DNA of 64,000 bases from a virus. Below are positions 13,831-51,745 of the stretch, one piece after another (the stretch's first letter is position 1; every line of letters begins with the position of its first letter). The notes beneath the pieces are model-generated. The model did not search any database. It was given only the letters and a program-made list of their open reading frames with translations, and was not told where the DNA came from. Position numbers and translations under genes: made by a program. The stretch is taken from positions 32,080 to 96,079 of the IMG/VR virus record IMGVR_UViG_3300042509_002293; one strand, written 5' to 3'.

Positions 13831-14328
13831 ATGCGAGACGGCGACGAGTTCCTGGAGGAACTGAAGGAGGAGTTGGTCCGCGAGGACCTCCGCCCCGGGA
13901 TCTTTGACCTGAACCCGAAGGACGCCGTGGGGGCCACGAAGCTCCCGCTCCACCTCTGGCCGATGACGGCCACGGCGATGGGCTCGATCGCGATGCTCAA
14001 CGGGGCCCTGAAGTACGGACGATCCAACTGGAGGGTCGCCGGAGTCCGGGCAAGCATCTACGTCGACGCCTGCCAGCGTCACCTCGCCGCGTGGTTCGAG
14101 GGCCACGAGGCCGACGAGGAGGGCGTCCCCCACCTCGCCAGCGCCCTGGCCTGCATCGCGATCGTGATCGACGCCCAGGCCGCCGGAAAGCTTCGCGATG
14201 ACCGACAGGTCCAGGGCGGGTATCGCGAACTCGTGGCGTCCCTGACTCCGCACGTCTCGCGGCTCAAGGAACGACACGAAGCTCGCGGCCCGCGACACTG
14301 GACCATCGCTGACAACAGCCAGCCGTGA
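13831..14328 (+). CDS. dATP/dGTP diphosphohydrolase-like protein (DUF5664-type, 165 aa)
   Basis: The ATG at 13831 is preceded by GGAGGCGAGG and clears the upstream gene. Residues ~30-115 show the family pattern: KLPLHLWP, then ALKYGRSNW, a histidine in CQRHLAAWFEGHEAD, and VPHLASALACIAIVI. Proteins with this domain occur in many phages and are thought to hydrolyse purine deoxynucleotides, shifting the dNTP pool; some partner with modified-purine synthesis, but no PurZ or modified-base polymerase is visible here. The gene faces the convergent integrase gene 21 bases away. Family assignment is from motif memory; activity is inferred. Confidence 0.75.
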   Translation: MRDGDEFLEELKEELVREDLRPGIFDLNPKDAVGATKLPLHLWPMTATAMGSIAMLNGALKYGRSNWRVAGVRASIYVDACQRHLAAWFEGHEADEEGVPHLASALACIAIVIDAQAAGKLRDDRQVQGGYRELVASLTPHVSRLKERHEARGPRHWTIADNSQP

Positions 14329-14349: not shown

Positions 14350-15255
14350 CTACCCCGAGTGGTCGCCCCCGGCTGGCCTGTTGTCGCGGTGAAGCGACGG
14401 CAGGACGTGGCAGGGCGGAGTTCCCAGGTCTGCATAGCGAGGATCTAGGTATGCCCTCGTGACGCGTGGGCTACTGTGATCAAGCAGGAGGGTGGCATTG
14501 CCTCCCCGGGCAGCGAAGTGTGACGCCGCGCAGCGTCTCAGTTGATGAAATTTCGCTCGCCGACCTCCGGGAAGTCCGGCCGCCTGGACGATATCGCCGA
14601 ACCGCTTCCAGATGTGCGCGTAGCAGCGGTCCCACTTGAAGATCAGGTCCGTCGGTGACTTCCCTCGGCACATCGCGTCGACGAGTTCGCACGTCTCGTC
14701 GGTGAGCGTGTAGAGCCGGTCCCGTTTCCCGCCCTTGCGGTGCTCGGCCTTCACGAGGAGCCTCGGGCTGCTCCAGTCCTCGACGCGAGCGGCGAAGATC
14801 GCGCCGCACCGTTCTGCGGTCTCGTAGAGCACACAGATCAGGGTCCGCCAAAAGAGCCCCGCCGGAATGCCGCTGATCCTCCCCGGCGTCGCCCCGGCGA
14901 CCAGGGCGAGATGCTGGAGTTCTGCGACGGACCAGCATGACGGAACCCGTTCGGGGAGACGGGCGGAGGGGGGCACGCACGGCGCGGTGGGGACGATGCC
15001 GCGATCACGAGCGAACCGCCAGAGCGAACACAACTGATTGCGTTCTTTCTCGCTCGTGTAGGGGCTCCTCTCCCTCGATCGCTTGTCGAGGAACCTCGAC
15101 AGCACGAGGTCGTCAAAGTCAGCCGTCGTCGCCGGCCTGCCGAGGAATTTGTCGAAAGTCCTCAGTGTGCAGTGGTAGAGCCGGGTGGTGTTCTCAGATC
15201 GGCCCCGCAGACGAAGCGGGCGGAAGTGTTCCTCGAATAACTCGTTGAGTTTCAT
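14350..15255 (-). CDS. int: Tyrosine recombinase / integrase (301 aa)
   Basis: Read on the - strand, with start ATG at 15255 chosen because GGAGG lies eight bases upstream; the open frame extends further upstream without support. An N-terminal SAM-like core-binding domain (ENTTRLYHCTLRTFDKFL) precedes the catalytic domain. The expected catalytic set is visible: Arg149 (ETAERCGAIF), Lys in EHRKGGKRD, the HQLRR box (His237, Arg240), His260 (LLDHSS) and Tyr269 (TRAYLDP). It should carry out site-specific integration or genome resolution. It is one of only two convincing - strand genes, consistent with a lysogeny island; no attachment core was identified with confidence. Confidence 0.93.
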   Translation of the reverse strand: MKLNELFEEHFRPLRLRGRSENTTRLYHCTLRTFDKFLGRPATTADFDDLVLSRFLDKRSRERSPYTSEKERNQLCSLWRFARDRGIVPTAPCVPPSARLPERVPSCWSVAELQHLALVAGATPGRISGIPAGLFWRTLICVLYETAERCGAIFAARVEDWSSPRLLVKAEHRKGGKRDRLYTLTDETCELVDAMCRGKSPTDLIFKWDRCYAHIWKRFGDIVQAAGLPGGRRAKFHQLRRCAASHFAARGGNATLLLDHSSPRVTRAYLDPRYADLGTPPCHVLPSLHRDNRPAGGDHSG

Positions 15256-15811: not shown

Positions 15812-16255
15812 GTGCCAAAGGACAGAATCGTGTCGATCGGCGAGGCGGCGGCCCTCAGGGGGCTGACGGAGGAGGCCATCATCAAGGCGATTGCCTCCGG
15901 GAGGCTCTTCGTCCACCAGTTGTCCGGGAAGGGGTACATGCTCTCGGAGAGGCAGGTCCTCGGGCGGAGTTTCGACAAGCAGGAATTCCAGCGAATGTGC
16001 CGGCAGTACGTCTCGGTTCCCGAGGCCTGCAACATCGTCTGGAAGACCGACGCGGCCGTCATGCGGGACATCCGCAAGGGGAGGATCAAGGGATTCCGGC
16101 TCAACAGCCGGTGCTGGGCGGTCCTCAAGGCCAGCGCCGAGGACGAGTTCCGCGACTACCTGGAGAACGGGCGTCGCCGGGTCGGCCGGCCCAGGGCCGT
16201 CGGCGAGACCCGGTCCCCCCGGGACCTGAGACGGAAGATTTTGCGGAAACGCTGA
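15812..16255 (+). CDS. Helix-turn-helix DNA-binding protein with two HTH-like units (147 aa)
   Basis: The GTG at 15812 has GGAGG six bases upstream; the frame is open further left but without a site. Two similar excisionase/MerR-like helix-turn-helix units are visible: VSIGEAAALRGLTEEAIIKAI with a GRLFVHQL wing, and VSVPEACNIVWKTDAAVMRDI with a GRIKGFRL wing. The C-terminus is basic (GRPRAVGETRSPRD). As first gene of the rightward operon beside the integrase island, it is a good candidate for a lysis-lysogeny regulator or excisionase. Which motif it binds cannot be told from sequence. Confidence 0.7.
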   Translation: MPKDRIVSIGEAAALRGLTEEAIIKAIASGRLFVHQLSGKGYMLSERQVLGRSFDKQEFQRMCRQYVSVPEACNIVWKTDAAVMRDIRKGRIKGFRLNSRCWAVLKASAEDEFRDYLENGRRRVGRPRAVGETRSPRDLRRKILRKR

Positions 16256-16275: not shown

Positions 16276-16479
16276 GTGTTGCGAATACTGACCACTGTCG
16301 AGGCGGCGGCCGAACTCGGGACCAGTCCGTCGAGCATTTCTCGCGCCGCGAGGAGGGCCGACGTCGGGCTGCGTCGCGAGGACGGTCGCCTCGTCGGCAT
16401 CAGCCGCAGCGACATGGCGAAGATCAGGAAGCTGCTCCGGTACAAGGCCGGCAACCCCAACTTCGGAAAGAAGAAGTGA
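16276..16479 (+). CDS. Small helix-turn-helix protein (67 aa)
   Basis: The GTG at 16276 (or the TTG next to it) opens a small protein with an excisionase-like helix-turn-helix (TTVEAAAELGTSPSSISRAA) and a wing (GLRREDGRLVGI), ending in a lysine tail. There is no Shine-Dalgarno sequence; a good promoter ends eight bases before the start, suggesting a leaderless mRNA. The stop overlaps the next ATG. Probable regulator or recombination directionality factor; its target is unknown. Confidence 0.6.
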   Translation: MLRILTTVEAAAELGTSPSSISRAARRADVGLRREDGRLVGISRSDMAKIRKLLRYKAGNPNFGKKK

Positions 16480-17345
16480 TGCCGCACACCGTGTACTACA
16501 GCGACGACTTCTGCCGTGCCACCCACGCGTTCGACACGACAAGGAAGTCGAGGTGGGTCGCCGACTCGCTCCGCACTCGTCCGGTGGACGGGGTCTCGCT
16601 GGAGGCACCGGCTCCGGCTGCGGTCGCTGACGTCGAGGCCGTCCACGCCCCGGAGTACGTCGCGGCCATCCGGGACGGCGAGCCCGACGGCGTCGCCAGC
16701 AGCAGCGGGCTGGCATGGTGCGAGTCCATGCTCGGATCGGTTCTGGCAAGCACGGGAGGCATGGTCGCGGCGGTGACGCGGGCCGCCCGGAGCGGCGTCG
16801 CCGGCTCGCTGTCGTCCGGCATGCACCACGCCCGGCGGAGCCACGGTCTCGGATTCTGCACGTTCAATGGGCTCGTCGTCGCCGCGAGGGCAGCCGAGGC
16901 TCTGGGGTACGAGCGGATCCTGATTCTCGACCTCGACGCCCACGGTGGAGGCGGGACGGCTTCTCTTATTTCCGGAAATGTACGGATAAGCCACCTCGAC
17001 CTCGTCGTCGACCCGTTCGACGTTCACGAAGACTCGATCGACCTGTCCCGGAGAAGCCCGCTCGACTACCTGACCGTGCTCTCGGCCTCCCTGGAGGCCC
17101 TCCGCCCGGACTTCGTCATCTACAACGCCGGCATGGACGTCGCCGAGGGGGACTGCGGCCCCGGCGGCTTCGACTCGCGGATCATCGCCGCCCGCGAGGT
17201 GACGGTCTTCGAGTGGGCTCAGCGGATCGGGGTGCCCATCTGCTACGGACTCGCCGGCGGGTACGAGTCGCCGACCCGGTCGCGGGAGTCGCTCGTGGCT
17301 CACCATCGCTCGACCATCAGGGCCGCAGAGCGGATCTGCGGCTGA
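16479..17345 (+). CDS. Histone-deacetylase-fold amidohydrolase (288 aa)
   Basis: The sequence carries the arginase/deacetylase-fold landmarks of class II HDACs and acetylpolyamine amidohydrolases: the His-His pair in SSGMHHARRSHGLGFC (116-117), the zinc-binding DLDAHGGGGT (Asp153, His155), the second aspartate in YNAGMDVAEGD (Asp220) and the C-terminal GLAGGY (Tyr262). All catalytic positions appear intact. Length is shorter than the usual 340-380 residues, mainly through a reduced N-terminus. Substrates of the family are acetyl-lysine, acetylpolyamines or other amides; the phage substrate is unknown. A host-modifying or anti-defence role is inference. Translationally coupled to the upstream HTH gene. 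Confidence 0.88.
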   Translation: MPHTVYYSDDFCRATHAFDTTRKSRWVADSLRTRPVDGVSLEAPAPAAVADVEAVHAPEYVAAIRDGEPDGVASSSGLAWCESMLGSVLASTGGMVAAVTRAARSGVAGSLSSGMHHARRSHGLGFCTFNGLVVAARAAEALGYERILILDLDAHGGGGTASLISGNVRISHLDLVVDPFDVHEDSIDLSRRSPLDYLTVLSASLEALRPDFVIYNAGMDVAEGDCGPGGFDSRIIAAREVTVFEWAQRIGVPICYGLAGGYESPTRSRESLVAHHRSTIRAAERICG

Positions 17346-42779: not shown

Positions 42780-44441
42780 ATGGCAATCTACAAAAGATGG
42801 GTAGGCGGCGCAGGGACGGGCAAAACCAGCCTGATCCTCGACTGCCTGACTGAGGCGAAGGCGTCGCTCGGCCTGAGCACGGACGAGATCGGCCTCTGCA
42901 CCTTCACGAGGGCGGGGCGACAGGAACTCTCCGAGCGGGCTGCCGAGGCCTGGGGGGTCGACGTGGAGGCCCTGACGAAGTCTGGATGGTTCAGGACGGC
43001 CCACTCGATCGCATACCGGCAGTCCAAGGTCGAGCAGGGCCAGCTTCTGGAGGGCGAGGACGGGATCGAGTGGACGAGCCAGAAGCTGGGCGAGAGGGCC
43101 GCTCCGGGCTCCGGAGACCCAGCCTCGTCCGGGTGGGAGACCCGAGGCGAGACCGACGCCTCGATCGCGTTGCGGGCCTGGGAACTCGCCCGGCAGTCCC
43201 TGGTCCCACTGAGTCAGGTGATCTCCGACTGGACCCAGATCGGAGACACGACCATCCAGGCCAACGCCGCCCGGGTGATCATCGACAAGTACGAGCACGC
43301 CAAGCGGGCGGAGGGCCGTCTGGACTTCACCGACGTGGCCTCGCGATTTGCTGGGGTCCGGCATACGGTCGACGGCCCGGTCGAGGTCGAGCCGACTGGA
43401 GACGTCCCTGAGCAACTGCGGGTGCTCGCGATCGACGAGGCCCAGGACTCCTCGGCGATCGTCGATCGAATCTGCCGGCGGATCGCCAGGAGCCCGAACA
43501 TCGAGCGAGTCTTTTTGCTCGGCGACCCGTACCAGTCGATCCTCGGATTCAACGGCGCCGACTATCGGCATTTCCTGTCCTGGGACGCGGACGAATCGAT
43601 CATGCCCAGATCCTACCGCTGCCCCAAGGTCATCATGGACTACGGCGAGCGGTGCCTCAGGCAGATGCGGAGCGGGTACCGGGACCGGAAGATATCTCCG
43701 GCGCCGCACGAGGGCTCAATCCTCCACGCCCGTCACGCCCACGAGGCCGTGTCTCGGATCGATCCTTCGCGGAGCACGCTCGTCATTGCCCGGGTTGCGT
43801 TCGCCCTGGCGGAGTACGAGGACGAACTCAAGGCCCGCAAGATCCCGTACTCGTGGATCGACCGAGTCGGGTCAGCGTCCTCGTTGTCTGGATACAAGTG
43901 CCTCTGGGATCTTGAGCACGGCCAGATCGTCAGCGGGGACGACTGGGCGGCCGCCATCGCCATGTCGGCGGCGTCTCACCCGGAAGCCGGCAAGCTGATA
44001 GTCCACGGCGAGAAGAAGGCCTGGAAAGACGGACGGAGAGGCAATATCGACTTCATCCGCCCGATCCCCGAGGACATGGAGTTGGCTGGATGCACGCCGA
44101 AGATGGTGGAGTTCATCCTCTCGGGCCGGTGGCCTGAGGCGATGGACTCCCGGCATCGAGACAAGGCTGCCGCCTGGAGGTCTGCCGCACTCACCCACGG
44201 CACGGACGTGGCGAGCAACCCGCGAGTGAGGCTGTCCACGATCCACTCGGCCAAGGGCATGGAGGGAGACCTCGTGATCCTGAGCACGGTGTCGAGCAAG
44301 GCGGTCGAGACTTCGAGGGTCTCGCTGGCCGCGAGGCACGACGAAGAGTGCAGAGTGAACTATGTGGCCGTTACACGGGCGAGGGAGAATCTGTTGGTGG
44401 TCGATGACGGGTCCAGATACTCACTGGAGCTACCAGCATGA
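42780..44441 (+). CDS. UvrD/Rep-like SF1 DNA helicase (553 aa)
   Basis: Superfamily 1 motifs in order: Walker A GGAGTGKT (9-16), Ia CTFTRAGRQEL, II IDEAQD (218-223), III LGDPYQSILGF, IV PRSYRCP, V STIHSAKGMEGD and VI YVAVTRARENLLV. It is shorter than UvrD, as is common for phage versions. Likely 3'-5' translocase in replication, repair or recombination. ATGA overlap with the protease gene. A dispersed-motif copy at 43886-43895 lies within the coding region. Confidence 0.92.
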   Translation: MAIYKRWVGGAGTGKTSLILDCLTEAKASLGLSTDEIGLCTFTRAGRQELSERAAEAWGVDVEALTKSGWFRTAHSIAYRQSKVEQGQLLEGEDGIEWTSQKLGERAAPGSGDPASSGWETRGETDASIALRAWELARQSLVPLSQVISDWTQIGDTTIQANAARVIIDKYEHAKRAEGRLDFTDVASRFAGVRHTVDGPVEVEPTGDVPEQLRVLAIDEAQDSSAIVDRICRRIARSPNIERVFLLGDPYQSILGFNGADYRHFLSWDADESIMPRSYRCPKVIMDYGERCLRQMRSGYRDRKISPAPHEGSILHARHAHEAVSRIDPSRSTLVIARVAFALAEYEDELKARKIPYSWIDRVGSASSLSGYKCLWDLEHGQIVSGDDWAAAIAMSAASHPEAGKLIVHGEKKAWKDGRRGNIDFIRPIPEDMELAGCTPKMVEFILSGRWPEAMDSRHRDKAAAWRSAALTHGTDVASNPRVRLSTIHSAKGMEGDLVILSTVSSKAVETSRVSLAARHDEECRVNYVAVTRARENLLVVDDGSRYSLELPA

Positions 44442-45178
44442 AATCCCTCTCGTTGATGGTTCTGTTCTTTGCCGGGGTCGCGATTGCCGGGACCAGGGAT
44501 CCGGGGGTCTCGGACCAGAGATATATCGACTACGGGTCGCAGTTCACCTGCGTCGGGAAGCTGGAATGCCGAGACTCGGATGGCCGCGATGCCGTCGCCA
44601 GTTGCGTCGCGATCGACCCCCACTGGGTCGTCACGGCCGCACACGTCGTCGCCGGGTCCACCAACGTGACGATACTCGTGTCTGGCAAGTCTCAGGCTGC
44701 CACCGAGATCGTGGTTCGGGACGGCTTCCGCTGCGACTGCGTCGGGTGCTGCGACATCGCCCTCGCCAGGGTCGGCGAGGACATCGGGCTGCCCTTCTAC
44801 CCCGGGTTGTACGGACAGGCTGACGAGGCCGGAAAAGTGGTCGCGATTGCCGGGTACGGGATGACCGGGACCCTGGAGACGGGGCACCTGATTAACGACG
44901 GACAGCGGCGTGCGGGCAGCAACATCGTCGACCACATCGGATCCAAGGGCCTCCTGATCTGCTCCGCAGGATCAGGGGTCGGCACCGAACTGGAGTTCCT
45001 CATCGCGCCGGGCGACTCCGGCGGCGGCCTGTTCATCGGCAACTCGCTGGCCGGGATCAACTCGCTCGTGATGGCCTCCAAGCGGTCGCCCCAGTCTCGA
45101 TACGGGGACGAATCCGGACACGTCCGAATCAGTCAGCACCTGGAGTGGATCCGTGAGCAACTCGCCAGAACTCGATAG
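44438..45178 (+). CDS. Secreted trypsin-like serine protease (246 aa)
   Basis: An N-terminal signal peptide (MKSLSLMVLFFAGVAIAG) is followed by an S1-type fold with an intact catalytic triad: His69 in VVTAAHVV, Asp106 in CDIALARV and Ser194 in PGDSGGGLF. Several cysteines suggest disulfides (RCDCVGCCD). Trypsin-like proteases with export signals are unusual in phages. Substrate unknown; modification of the host surface or inactivation of competitors or defence factors are possibilities. Cotranslated with the helicase gene, overlaps the next gene by 26 bases. Confidence 0.85.
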   Translation: MKSLSLMVLFFAGVAIAGTRDPGVSDQRYIDYGSQFTCVGKLECRDSDGRDAVASCVAIDPHWVVTAAHVVAGSTNVTILVSGKSQAATEIVVRDGFRCDCVGCCDIALARVGEDIGLPFYPGLYGQADEAGKVVAIAGYGMTGTLETGHLINDGQRRAGSNIVDHIGSKGLLICSAGSGVGTELEFLIAPGDSGGGLFIGNSLAGINSLVMASKRSPQSRYGDESGHVRISQHLEWIREQLARTR

Positions 45179-46185: not shown

Positions 46186-46653
46186 ATGCCCGCCGGCAAT
46201 TCTCAGATCGTCAAGATTCTCCAGTCGTCCCTCGCCCTCCACTGGTCTGCCATCGAGGCCTACACGCTCCAGTCGCGTCATTACTCGACCTGGGGCTACC
46301 CGAAGCTCGCCGAGAAGTACGCCGGCGACGCCGAGGAGGAGCGGCAGCACGTCCACAAGATCGCCGACCGCCTGGAGTTCTTTGACGAGACTCCGACGGC
46401 GATGCACGAGTCTGTGGAGTGGCCCCGCCACGACTTCGCCGCCGCCCTCGACGTCAACTACGACCTGGAGCAGTCGGCGGCGAACATCGAGCGTGGCGGC
46501 TACTCGATGGCCGTCGAGCTTGGAGACGCAGTCACCGCCGAGCTTTTCAAGGACCTGTTGTCCGACAGCGAGGCCTCGCTCATCGAGATCGAAGCCATTC
46601 GCGAGGTCATCGACCAGATCGGACTGGACAACTACCTCGCGAATCAGGCCTGA
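46186..46653 (+). CDS. Bacterioferritin-like ferritin (155 aa)
   Basis: Length and helices fit bacterioferritin: ALHWSAIEAYTLQSRHYSTWGYPKL resembles helix A, EEERQHVHKIADRLEFFD helix B with the E-x-x-H pair, YDLEQSAANIERG helix C and a final EIEAIREVIDQIG. By hand alignment the first-helix glutamate is a histidine, the last-helix E-x-x-H pair is replaced by serines, and the heme methionine is absent. Iron oxidation is therefore questionable; iron or DNA sequestration may remain. Phage-encoded ferritin is rare. Sits between an unknown gene and a methyltransferase. Confidence 0.82.
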   Translation: MPAGNSQIVKILQSSLALHWSAIEAYTLQSRHYSTWGYPKLAEKYAGDAEEERQHVHKIADRLEFFDETPTAMHESVEWPRHDFAAALDVNYDLEQSAANIERGGYSMAVELGDAVTAELFKDLLSDSEASLIEIEAIREVIDQIGLDNYLANQA

Positions 46654-50933: not shown

Positions 50934-51353
50934 ATGGATGCCATCGTCACCAACGTCGCCAGCCTCTCGCCGCTGGATTCGCAGGAGATCGTCAGCCTGC
51001 TGTCCAACTCGGGATCCGACTTCCAGGCCGAAGTCGCTGGGGGGCGTTCCTCGCGTCCCGTCGCGATCGTCAGGAACGCCGAGGCCAGGGTTGCCGGCTG
51101 GGCGAACACAGACCGCTGGGAGGGCTTGCAGACCCTGGAGTGCTACACCCGCAGCGACATGCGTCGCCGGGGTATTGCCAGGGCCGCCGCTGCCCTGCTC
51201 GTGGCGGACGGTCGCATTGATCCGCGAGAGTGTGTGGCCGTCTTCGAGCCAGAGTGCGTGAAGCTTGCCGAGAGTGTCGGCTGCCGTGACGTTCGCCTTT
51301 ACGAACTTCGCGGGGATGAGTGGGTCCTAGTTCAAGGAGGAACGACGACATGA
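50934..51353 (+). CDS. GNAT-family acetyltransferase (139 aa)
   Basis: The acetyl-CoA binding motif is clear: LECYTRSDMRRRGIARAAAALLV, with R-x-x-G-x-A. Flanking strands (PVAIVRNAEARVAGWANT and VAVFEPECVKLAESVG) fit a small GNAT fold. No ribosome binding site precedes the ATG; the strong promoter ends eleven bases away, suggesting a leaderless mRNA. Substrate unknown; notable beside a deacetylase-fold enzyme elsewhere in the genome. Confidence 0.77.
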   Translation: MDAIVTNVASLSPLDSQEIVSLLSNSGSDFQAEVAGGRSSRPVAIVRNAEARVAGWANTDRWEGLQTLECYTRSDMRRRGIARAAAALLVADGRIDPRECVAVFEPECVKLAESVGCRDVRLYELRGDEWVLVQGGTTT

Positions 51354-51745
51354 GAAGCTTGGTTCTCTTTCTGTGTCTTTCGCTCACGGCCACGGCGGCC
51401 GAGACCTGCACGGCCCTCAACGAGGCCGAGTCGATCGTGCTGTCTGAGACGAATTCGGCCAGGGCCAGGATCGGACTCCCGGGCCTCGTGGTCGACTGCC
51501 GGCTCATGGCGGCGGCTCGCCGGCATGCCCGTCGTCTGGCTCAGTCTGGATCGCTCTACCACTCGCAGGGCGTGGCCGAGAACGTCGCCTCCGGCCAGCC
51601 TGACGGGTTCGACGCCGTGGCCTCGTGGATGGCCTCGTCGGGCCACCGTGCCAACATTCTCAACAGGTCCCACCGTCGAGTCGGCGTGGCCGGGTTCGTC
51701 GGCCCCGACGGCCGCCATTACTGGGTGCAGCAGTTCGCACCCTGA
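51350..51745 (+). CDS. Secreted CAP-domain protein (131 aa)
   Basis: ATG in an ATGA overlap, with AAGGAGG upstream. Signal peptide MRSLVLFLCLSLTATAAE, then a CAP/SCP fold: VLSETNSARARIGLPGL, ARRHARRLAQSGSLYHS, VAENVAS, ASWMASSGHRANIL and VGVAGFVG. Histidines and glutamates of the CAP cavity appear present. Secreted CAP proteins are common in bacteria but unusual in phages; function could be envelope interaction or stability outside the cell. Confidence 0.82.
   Translation: MRSLVLFLCLSLTATAAETCTALNEAESIVLSETNSARARIGLPGLVVDCRLMAAARRHARRLAQSGSLYHSQGVAENVASGQPDGFDAVASWMASSGHRANILNRSHRRVGVAGFVGPDGRHYWVQQFAP

Follow-up and report, generated by a model that had tools for sequence, protein, structure and literature searches.

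Among phage proteins, the described counterpart of the protein reported here is gp202 of Rhodococcus phage E3 (HM114277), annotated 'putative histone deacetylase protein'; to our knowledge it is characterised by that annotation alone. No paper devoted to phage histone deacetylases (HDACs) was found in the literature searched, the phage E3 genome paper lying outside that search. HDAC catalysis has been described as relying on two His dyads made up of residues conserved from bacteria to eukaryotes. The second charge-relay residue (D183 in HDAC8, Asn186 in KpHdaH) orients and polarises the general-base His and is Asp or Asn in the characterised enzymes (PMC8556138, PMC11532494), and a conserved Ser completes the K+ site in canonical members (PMC11532494). 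VcHdaH of Vibrio cholerae is a weak de-decanoylase (PMC11532494). Finally, the domains DSPc, ARPP-1, TY-Chap3 and ADP_ribosyl_GH have been described as components of ARG-centric ADP-ribose systems (Iyer et al., 2022, PMC9503650, section 3.8).

The window, that is, the whole stretch of 64,000 nucleotides analysed, belongs to a virus record of 96,079 bp and carries an HDAC gene in the following setting:

14350 to 15255, minus strand: tyrosine recombinase of the integrase family; resident flank, which served to identify relatives that have or lack the HDAC gene
15830 to 16255, plus strand: HTH_17-like protein of 141 aa (match to Pfam HTH_17 at E 2e-4, which does not reach the curated cut-off); resident, left edge of the HDAC cassette
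16276 to 16479, plus strand: HTH-like protein of 67 aa (HTH67), overlapping the HDAC start
16479 to 17345, plus strand: HDAC-fold hydrolase of the Gly158/Asp181 subfamily, 288 aa (open reading frame, Pfam, AlphaFold2, structural alignment)
17369 to 17596, plus strand: Cys-rich protein of 75 aa (CxxC...C...C), directly after the HDAC
17593 to 17985, plus strand: DUF3310, a 'nucleotide kinase' in PHROG; resident, to the right of the HDAC cassette
18190 to 18501, plus strand: MazG-like pyrophosphohydrolase, context gene
18498 to 19085, plus strand: RNA ligase, RLIG1-like / phrog_14301, context gene
19574 to 20872, plus strand: Ro60/TROVE RNA-binding protein with a VWA-like C-terminus, context gene

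The sequence-only reading had proposed a phage-encoded HDAC-fold enzyme at this position, which was borne out. The gene is an uninterrupted open reading frame of 288 codons from ATG to TGA; this ATG and the stop codon of the HTH67 gene overlap. The protein matches PF00850 (Hist_deacetyl) at 108.9 bits (E 3.9e-31), above the curated cut-off of 27.9; PHROG, NCBIfam and PADLOC gave no match and hence no name. The AlphaFold2 model, based on an alignment of 107 homologues, has a mean pLDDT of 97.0 and a pTM of 0.94. Its top structural match in VIA-align is 9gkv_B (VcHdaH; Z 39.5, rmsd 1.8 over 285 residues, 28% identity), followed by Leptospira HDAC11 (LiHDAC11; Z 36.9, rmsd 2.1 over 283 residues, 22% identity). 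VcHdaH is also the nearest solved structure by sequence (9GKV/9GKY; E 9.9e-28 with a single-sequence query and 4.2e-42 with a four-sequence profile). The pLDDT and the Z-score to VcHdaH place the protein in the arginase/deacetylase-fold family of PF00850, and its zinc site is formed. By the ranking of structures nearest to the model, the protein is closest to the HDAC11-like branch. A plasmid origin was considered and rejected, the best plasmid matches having about 35% identity and none reaching 80% coverage by the tool's count.

The sequence-only reading had further described the active site as intact, which holds for one part of the machinery. The motifs H116-H117, D151-L-D153-A-H155, N216-A-G-M-D220 and G260-G-Y262 are all present, supplying the Asp/His/Asp zinc ligands (D153, H155, D220), the tandem His and the catalytic Tyr (Y262), and G114, H116, H117, D151, D153, H155, D220 and Y262 are invariant in the 107 aligned homologues. 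The description fails at two other positions: the equivalent of HDAC8 D183 is Gly158, within a DLDAHGGGGT stretch that aligns to DSDVHHGDGT in VcHdaH, and the position of the K+-site Ser is, by alignment, occupied by Asp174. The Asp or Asn that serves as second charge-relay residue in the canonical catalytic centre is therefore lacking, and because Gly158 is shared by 80 of 137 distinct homologues, the protein is regarded as a variant of the HDAC family and not as a canonical member. A third difference lies directly after Phe180, where Asp181 stands in place of the Pro of the canonical Phe-Pro pair. The putative foot-pocket motif before the tandem His reads SSGMHH, compared with SGGYHH in VcHdaH and GGGFHH in HDAC11; in cluster 5 / class IV deacylases a motif of small residues stands here instead of RPP and goes with an extended foot pocket.

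Asp181 was found in all 80 Gly158 homologues and in only one of the 57 with Asp or Asn at 158 (137 sequences, all less than 90% identical to each other). Two homologues, L016 and L121, combine Asp158 with Asp174 and are without the loop bearing Asp181; they were nested inside the Gly clade in a first tree. When the trait columns were removed, a tree with all Gly rows as one clade scored 41 log units above a quick free tree (p-AU 0.928). A regain of Asp158 within the Gly clade is thus unsupported, the single-clade tree being at least as good, and the switch may have occurred only once. The Gly158/Asp181 pattern is nearly perfect but rests on one or two evolutionary events, and Gly158 is a trait of the clade, not decay. 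Asp181 most likely either acts as the dyad partner from a new position or is a newly gained carboxylate that binds substrate and is tied to the loss at position 158. The subfamily, common to phages and bacteria, has apparently not been described so far. Such a large natural clade, in which one dyad residue is missing and a conserved Asp has been gained, allows direct testing of the ways in which HDAC machinery can be rebuilt.

HDAC-fold enzymes had been called rare in phages. Only six of 50,697 phage records match the window protein, two of them the same phage (Rhodococcus phage E3) and the other four large uncultured phages of lower similarity than E3; yet 117 IMG/VR loci, of which the best 80 were kept, encode a relative, which leaves the claim unconfirmed. 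These loci include a 618-kb contig, and contigs called viral may contain some host DNA. Bacterial members belong mostly to Actinomycetota, with others in Chloroflexota, Planctomycetota, Gemmatimonadota and further phyla. When 346 genomes were drawn from the phylum to which one member belongs, five had the Gly form, the seed genome among them. On the tree viral rows are intermixed with cellular ones, with 15 label changes of which at least seven are forced by well supported branches, and this suggests repeated transfer. The window copy itself groups with phage copies, one planctomycete contig joining the wider set. The closest cellular homologue (54%) is on a planctomycete MAG contig with an HTH_17-like gene upstream of the HDAC (L013, L086), a possible hint to host range or to a mobile cassette. 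In one phage group (L019, L021, L027, L035) the HDAC gene is flanked by a ParB-N-domain gene on one side and a PAPS-reductase-like gene on the other.

The neighbours of Gly-clade HDACs repeatedly include components of the ARG-centric systems. Upstream (n=82), Pfam identified DSPc in ten neighbours and ARPP-1 in three, and downstream (n=81) TY-Chap3 in three and ADP_ribosyl_GH in two; in the seed genome ARPP-1 directly adjoins the HDAC gene. In searches with sequence seeds, at least one of DSP, ARPP, ARG, VWA and TY-Chap3 was present at 24 of 79 distinct Gly-clade loci against none of 25 non-Gly controls (Fisher p 7e-4), a comparison in which the seeds came from the Gly clade, the loci are not phylogenetically independent, flank lengths vary and VWA is found in controls too. 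Among the 25 most frequent Pfam families of 77 control neighbours there was no DSP, ARPP, ARG or TY-Chap3, and VWA occurred in two proteins. The actinobacterial locus L277 (2132-8155) is one of the few Gly-clade loci from the 346-genome draw. It encodes in order an AAA ATPase, an ARG::DSP fusion, NrtR (Nudix plus winged helix), a DSP-like protein, recognised by similarity to other neighbours and not by Pfam, and the HDAC.

An ADP-ribosylglycohydrolase with a phosphatase, as expected of an ARG-centric locus, is found near the HDAC of some bacterial cousins, such as L277, but not in the window phage. No match to DSPc, ADP_ribosyl_GH or Macro was obtained in its 96-kb record, nor to DSPc, ADP-ribosylglycohydrolase or Macro in the nearest relative examined, and the ADP-ribose proposal is therefore drawn from cousins at about 40-50% identity. 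Sequence searches with bacterial seeds gave no link between the DSP neighbours of phages and those of bacteria, so HDAC and DSP may have become paired on two separate occasions. A link to Macro domains in phages was also considered and dropped, none being found in 15 records, one from the window phage and 14 from other viruses with an HDAC.

Other genes recur near Gly-clade HDACs. A protein of about 1100 aa combining a PD-(D/E)XK / RNase H-like nuclease with a helicase was observed at L279 (2330-5686) and also at L278, L090 and L131, parts of it matching the PADLOC models MkoA/MkoC and Cas4. In Acidimicrobiaceae, Gly-clade HDACs are repeatedly accompanied by a metallo-beta-lactamase protein that has an RMMBL-type RNA-specificity domain (L131, L143, L144, L146, L149).

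Taking these observations together, we give a probability of about 0.5 to the reading that the window protein is an active accessory Zn2+-dependent deacylase with an acylated ADP-ribose-linked target as the leading candidate substrate class. The HDAC is accessory cargo, which the phage carries along with a small HTH protein. By homology, D153, H155 and D220 would bind zinc, H116 and H117 would activate water and Y262 would stabilise the oxyanion. Gly158 represents the loss of the residue that normally orients the general base, His117, and the carboxylate of Asp181, beside Phe180 of the substrate tunnel, would most likely either replace that residue or bind substrate. During infection the enzyme would most likely deacylate a protein or other molecule made by the host. 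The earlier suggestion of a removable acyl modification remains plausible, given an HDAC-fold hydrolase with a formed zinc site. Acylated ADP-ribose, or a protein modification linked to ADP-ribosylation, leads the candidate substrates because the bacterial cousins adjoin genes for ADP-ribosylglycohydrolase, DSP-type phosphatase, ARPP, NrtR and peptide chaperones. A tentative and rather speculative extension is that Gly158/Asp181 HDACs are an unrecognised enzyme of bacterial ADP-ribose conflict systems, deacylating ADP-ribose derivatives or ADP-ribosylated targets through a rebuilt dyad, and that phages took up the HDAC, with or without the DSP-type phosphatase, to counter NAD/ADP-ribose-based host defence. 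If the genomic association holds, a deacylase would be added to the predicted conflict systems and there would be a testable reason for HDAC-like enzymes in phages.

The protein may instead be an ordinary HDAC11-like lysine deacylase that adjusts transcription or metabolism by freeing a protein of the host, or of the phage, from acetyl groups or longer acyl chains, the ADP-ribose neighbourhoods of its cousins being incidental. We regard this as possible, if on balance doubtful. The nearest structures, VcHdaH with bound decanoate and Leptospira HDAC11 with bound dodecenoate, fall in protein or fatty de-acylase groups (PMC11532494, PMC13325672). The Gly158, Asp174 and Asp181 changes nevertheless separate the clade from the characterised members compared, and class IV clade A enzymes show that HDAC11-like folds can be without any peptide activity (PMC13325672).

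The loss of a dyad residue could leave little or no hydrolase activity, and it is conceivable, though unlikely, that the fold is dead or very weak and acts as a binding protein sequestering an acylated ligand, the dyad having been lost when catalysis was unneeded. Gly158 does take away the residue to which the orientation and polarisation of the general base are ascribed (PMC8556138, PMC11532494). A dead enzyme would, however, be expected to lose some of its other catalytic residues, whereas the zinc ligands, both His and the Tyr are invariant in 107 of 107 sequences, and Asp181 is invariant exactly where Gly158 occurs.

Far less probable is an amidohydrolase of acetylpolyamines or other small amides that would feed host polyamine pools to the phage. 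The fold family is shared, and bacterial HdaH and APAH enzymes both align to the model at Z of about 33; APAH structures thus rank under the HDAC11-like enzymes, and bacterial polyamine deacetylases were reported only from cluster 4, with an extended L2 loop through which its members dimerise (PMC11532494). The polyamine substrate offered by the sequence-only reading became less likely because the nearest structures, VcHdaH and LiHDAC11, are HDAC11-like deacylases.

The HTH67-HDAC pair was present in all four relatives whose integrase gene is 76-77% identical, while eight more distant relatives (integrase 56-58% identical; L285-L291, L294) keep the HTH_17-like and DUF3310 genes, directly adjacent where inspected, and lack both HTH67 and HDAC; L292 and L293 were left out since their sequences do not cover the relevant stretch. 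The cassette is thus found in the nearest relatives and missing from those slightly further away. The existence of relatives with the same flanking genes and without the pair identifies the HDAC as accessory cargo. HTH67 was found only together with the HDAC in the relatives examined; weakly similar copies of the Cys-rich protein also occur in HDAC-lacking relatives. Relatives with conserved flanks have HDAC proteins 70-71% identical to that of the window, and dN/dS, indicating purifying selection, is about 0.10-0.13 when close relatives are compared with one another and 0.29-0.32 when they are compared with the window copy. With conserved flanks, low dN/dS and the pLDDT of the model, the gene lies far beyond chance; it is a real, selectively maintained zinc HDAC-family protein. 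That it is a neutral passenger from a host on its way to loss, as its patchy presence among phages with the same flanks might suggest, is most improbable in view of these dN/dS values and the grouping of the window copy with phage copies.

The function had also been sought in the operon partners and in a GNAT acetyltransferase encoded elsewhere. A Pfam scan of about 75 of the 81 called window proteins gave no GNAT family match. The RNA ligase was rejected as a functional partner: in the stretch covered, none of 80 fetched viral loci with this RNA ligase gene (one of them another fragment of the window phage itself) carried an HDAC, so the ligase is no general HDAC partner. Together with the HDAC-lacking phages that have the same surrounding genes, this gives no support to reading the function from the operon partners. 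The RNA ligase, which among Pfam families matches RLIG1 (RNA ligase 1) best, lies next to the Ro60/TROVE-VWA gene, and the two look like a phage RNA-repair module. Near the MazG and DUF3310 genes, 13831-14328 encodes a probable member of the dATP/dGTP diphosphohydrolase N-terminal family (PF18909), a single match in a pooled Pfam scan tied to this gene by appearance only. Three further genes of the window, at 44438-45178, 46186-46653 and 51350-51745, encode a serine protease of the trypsin-like type, a ferritin-like protein and a protein with a CAP/CRISP domain.

Among the known systems, BFVD contains HDAC-like proteins from giant viruses of eukaryotes (Yasminevirus, Hyperionvirus, Catovirus); these are likewise virus-encoded and share the fold, but at 13-16% identity they evidently form another branch. 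Phage E3 gp202 is much nearer (45% identity over 96% of the protein), with the same DxDAHxGGGT and FD motifs in a phage genome, although its surroundings differ, gp202 being near tail-fibre genes. Leptospira interrogans HDAC11 (PDB 9GZ5; class IV, PMC13325672) reaches Z 36.9 but only 22% identity; the main text of that paper mentions neither phages nor viruses, and the Gly158/Asp181 switch does not appear in the passages covered. VcHdaH (PDB 9GKV/9GKY; cluster 5b, Graf et al., 2024, PMC11532494) has the same zinc and tandem-His architecture and a related foot-pocket motif, and differs in aligning Asp, Ser and Pro to positions 158, 174 and 181. The ARG-centric systems are described in a paper that does not use the term HDAC in its main text (Iyer, Burroughs, Anantharaman & Aravind, 2022, PMC9503650). 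They differ from the window phage, which has its HDAC without DSPc, ARG or Macro; their ARG, DSP-type phosphatase, ARPP-1, TY-Chap3, VWA and NrtR components are also found near Gly-clade HDACs.
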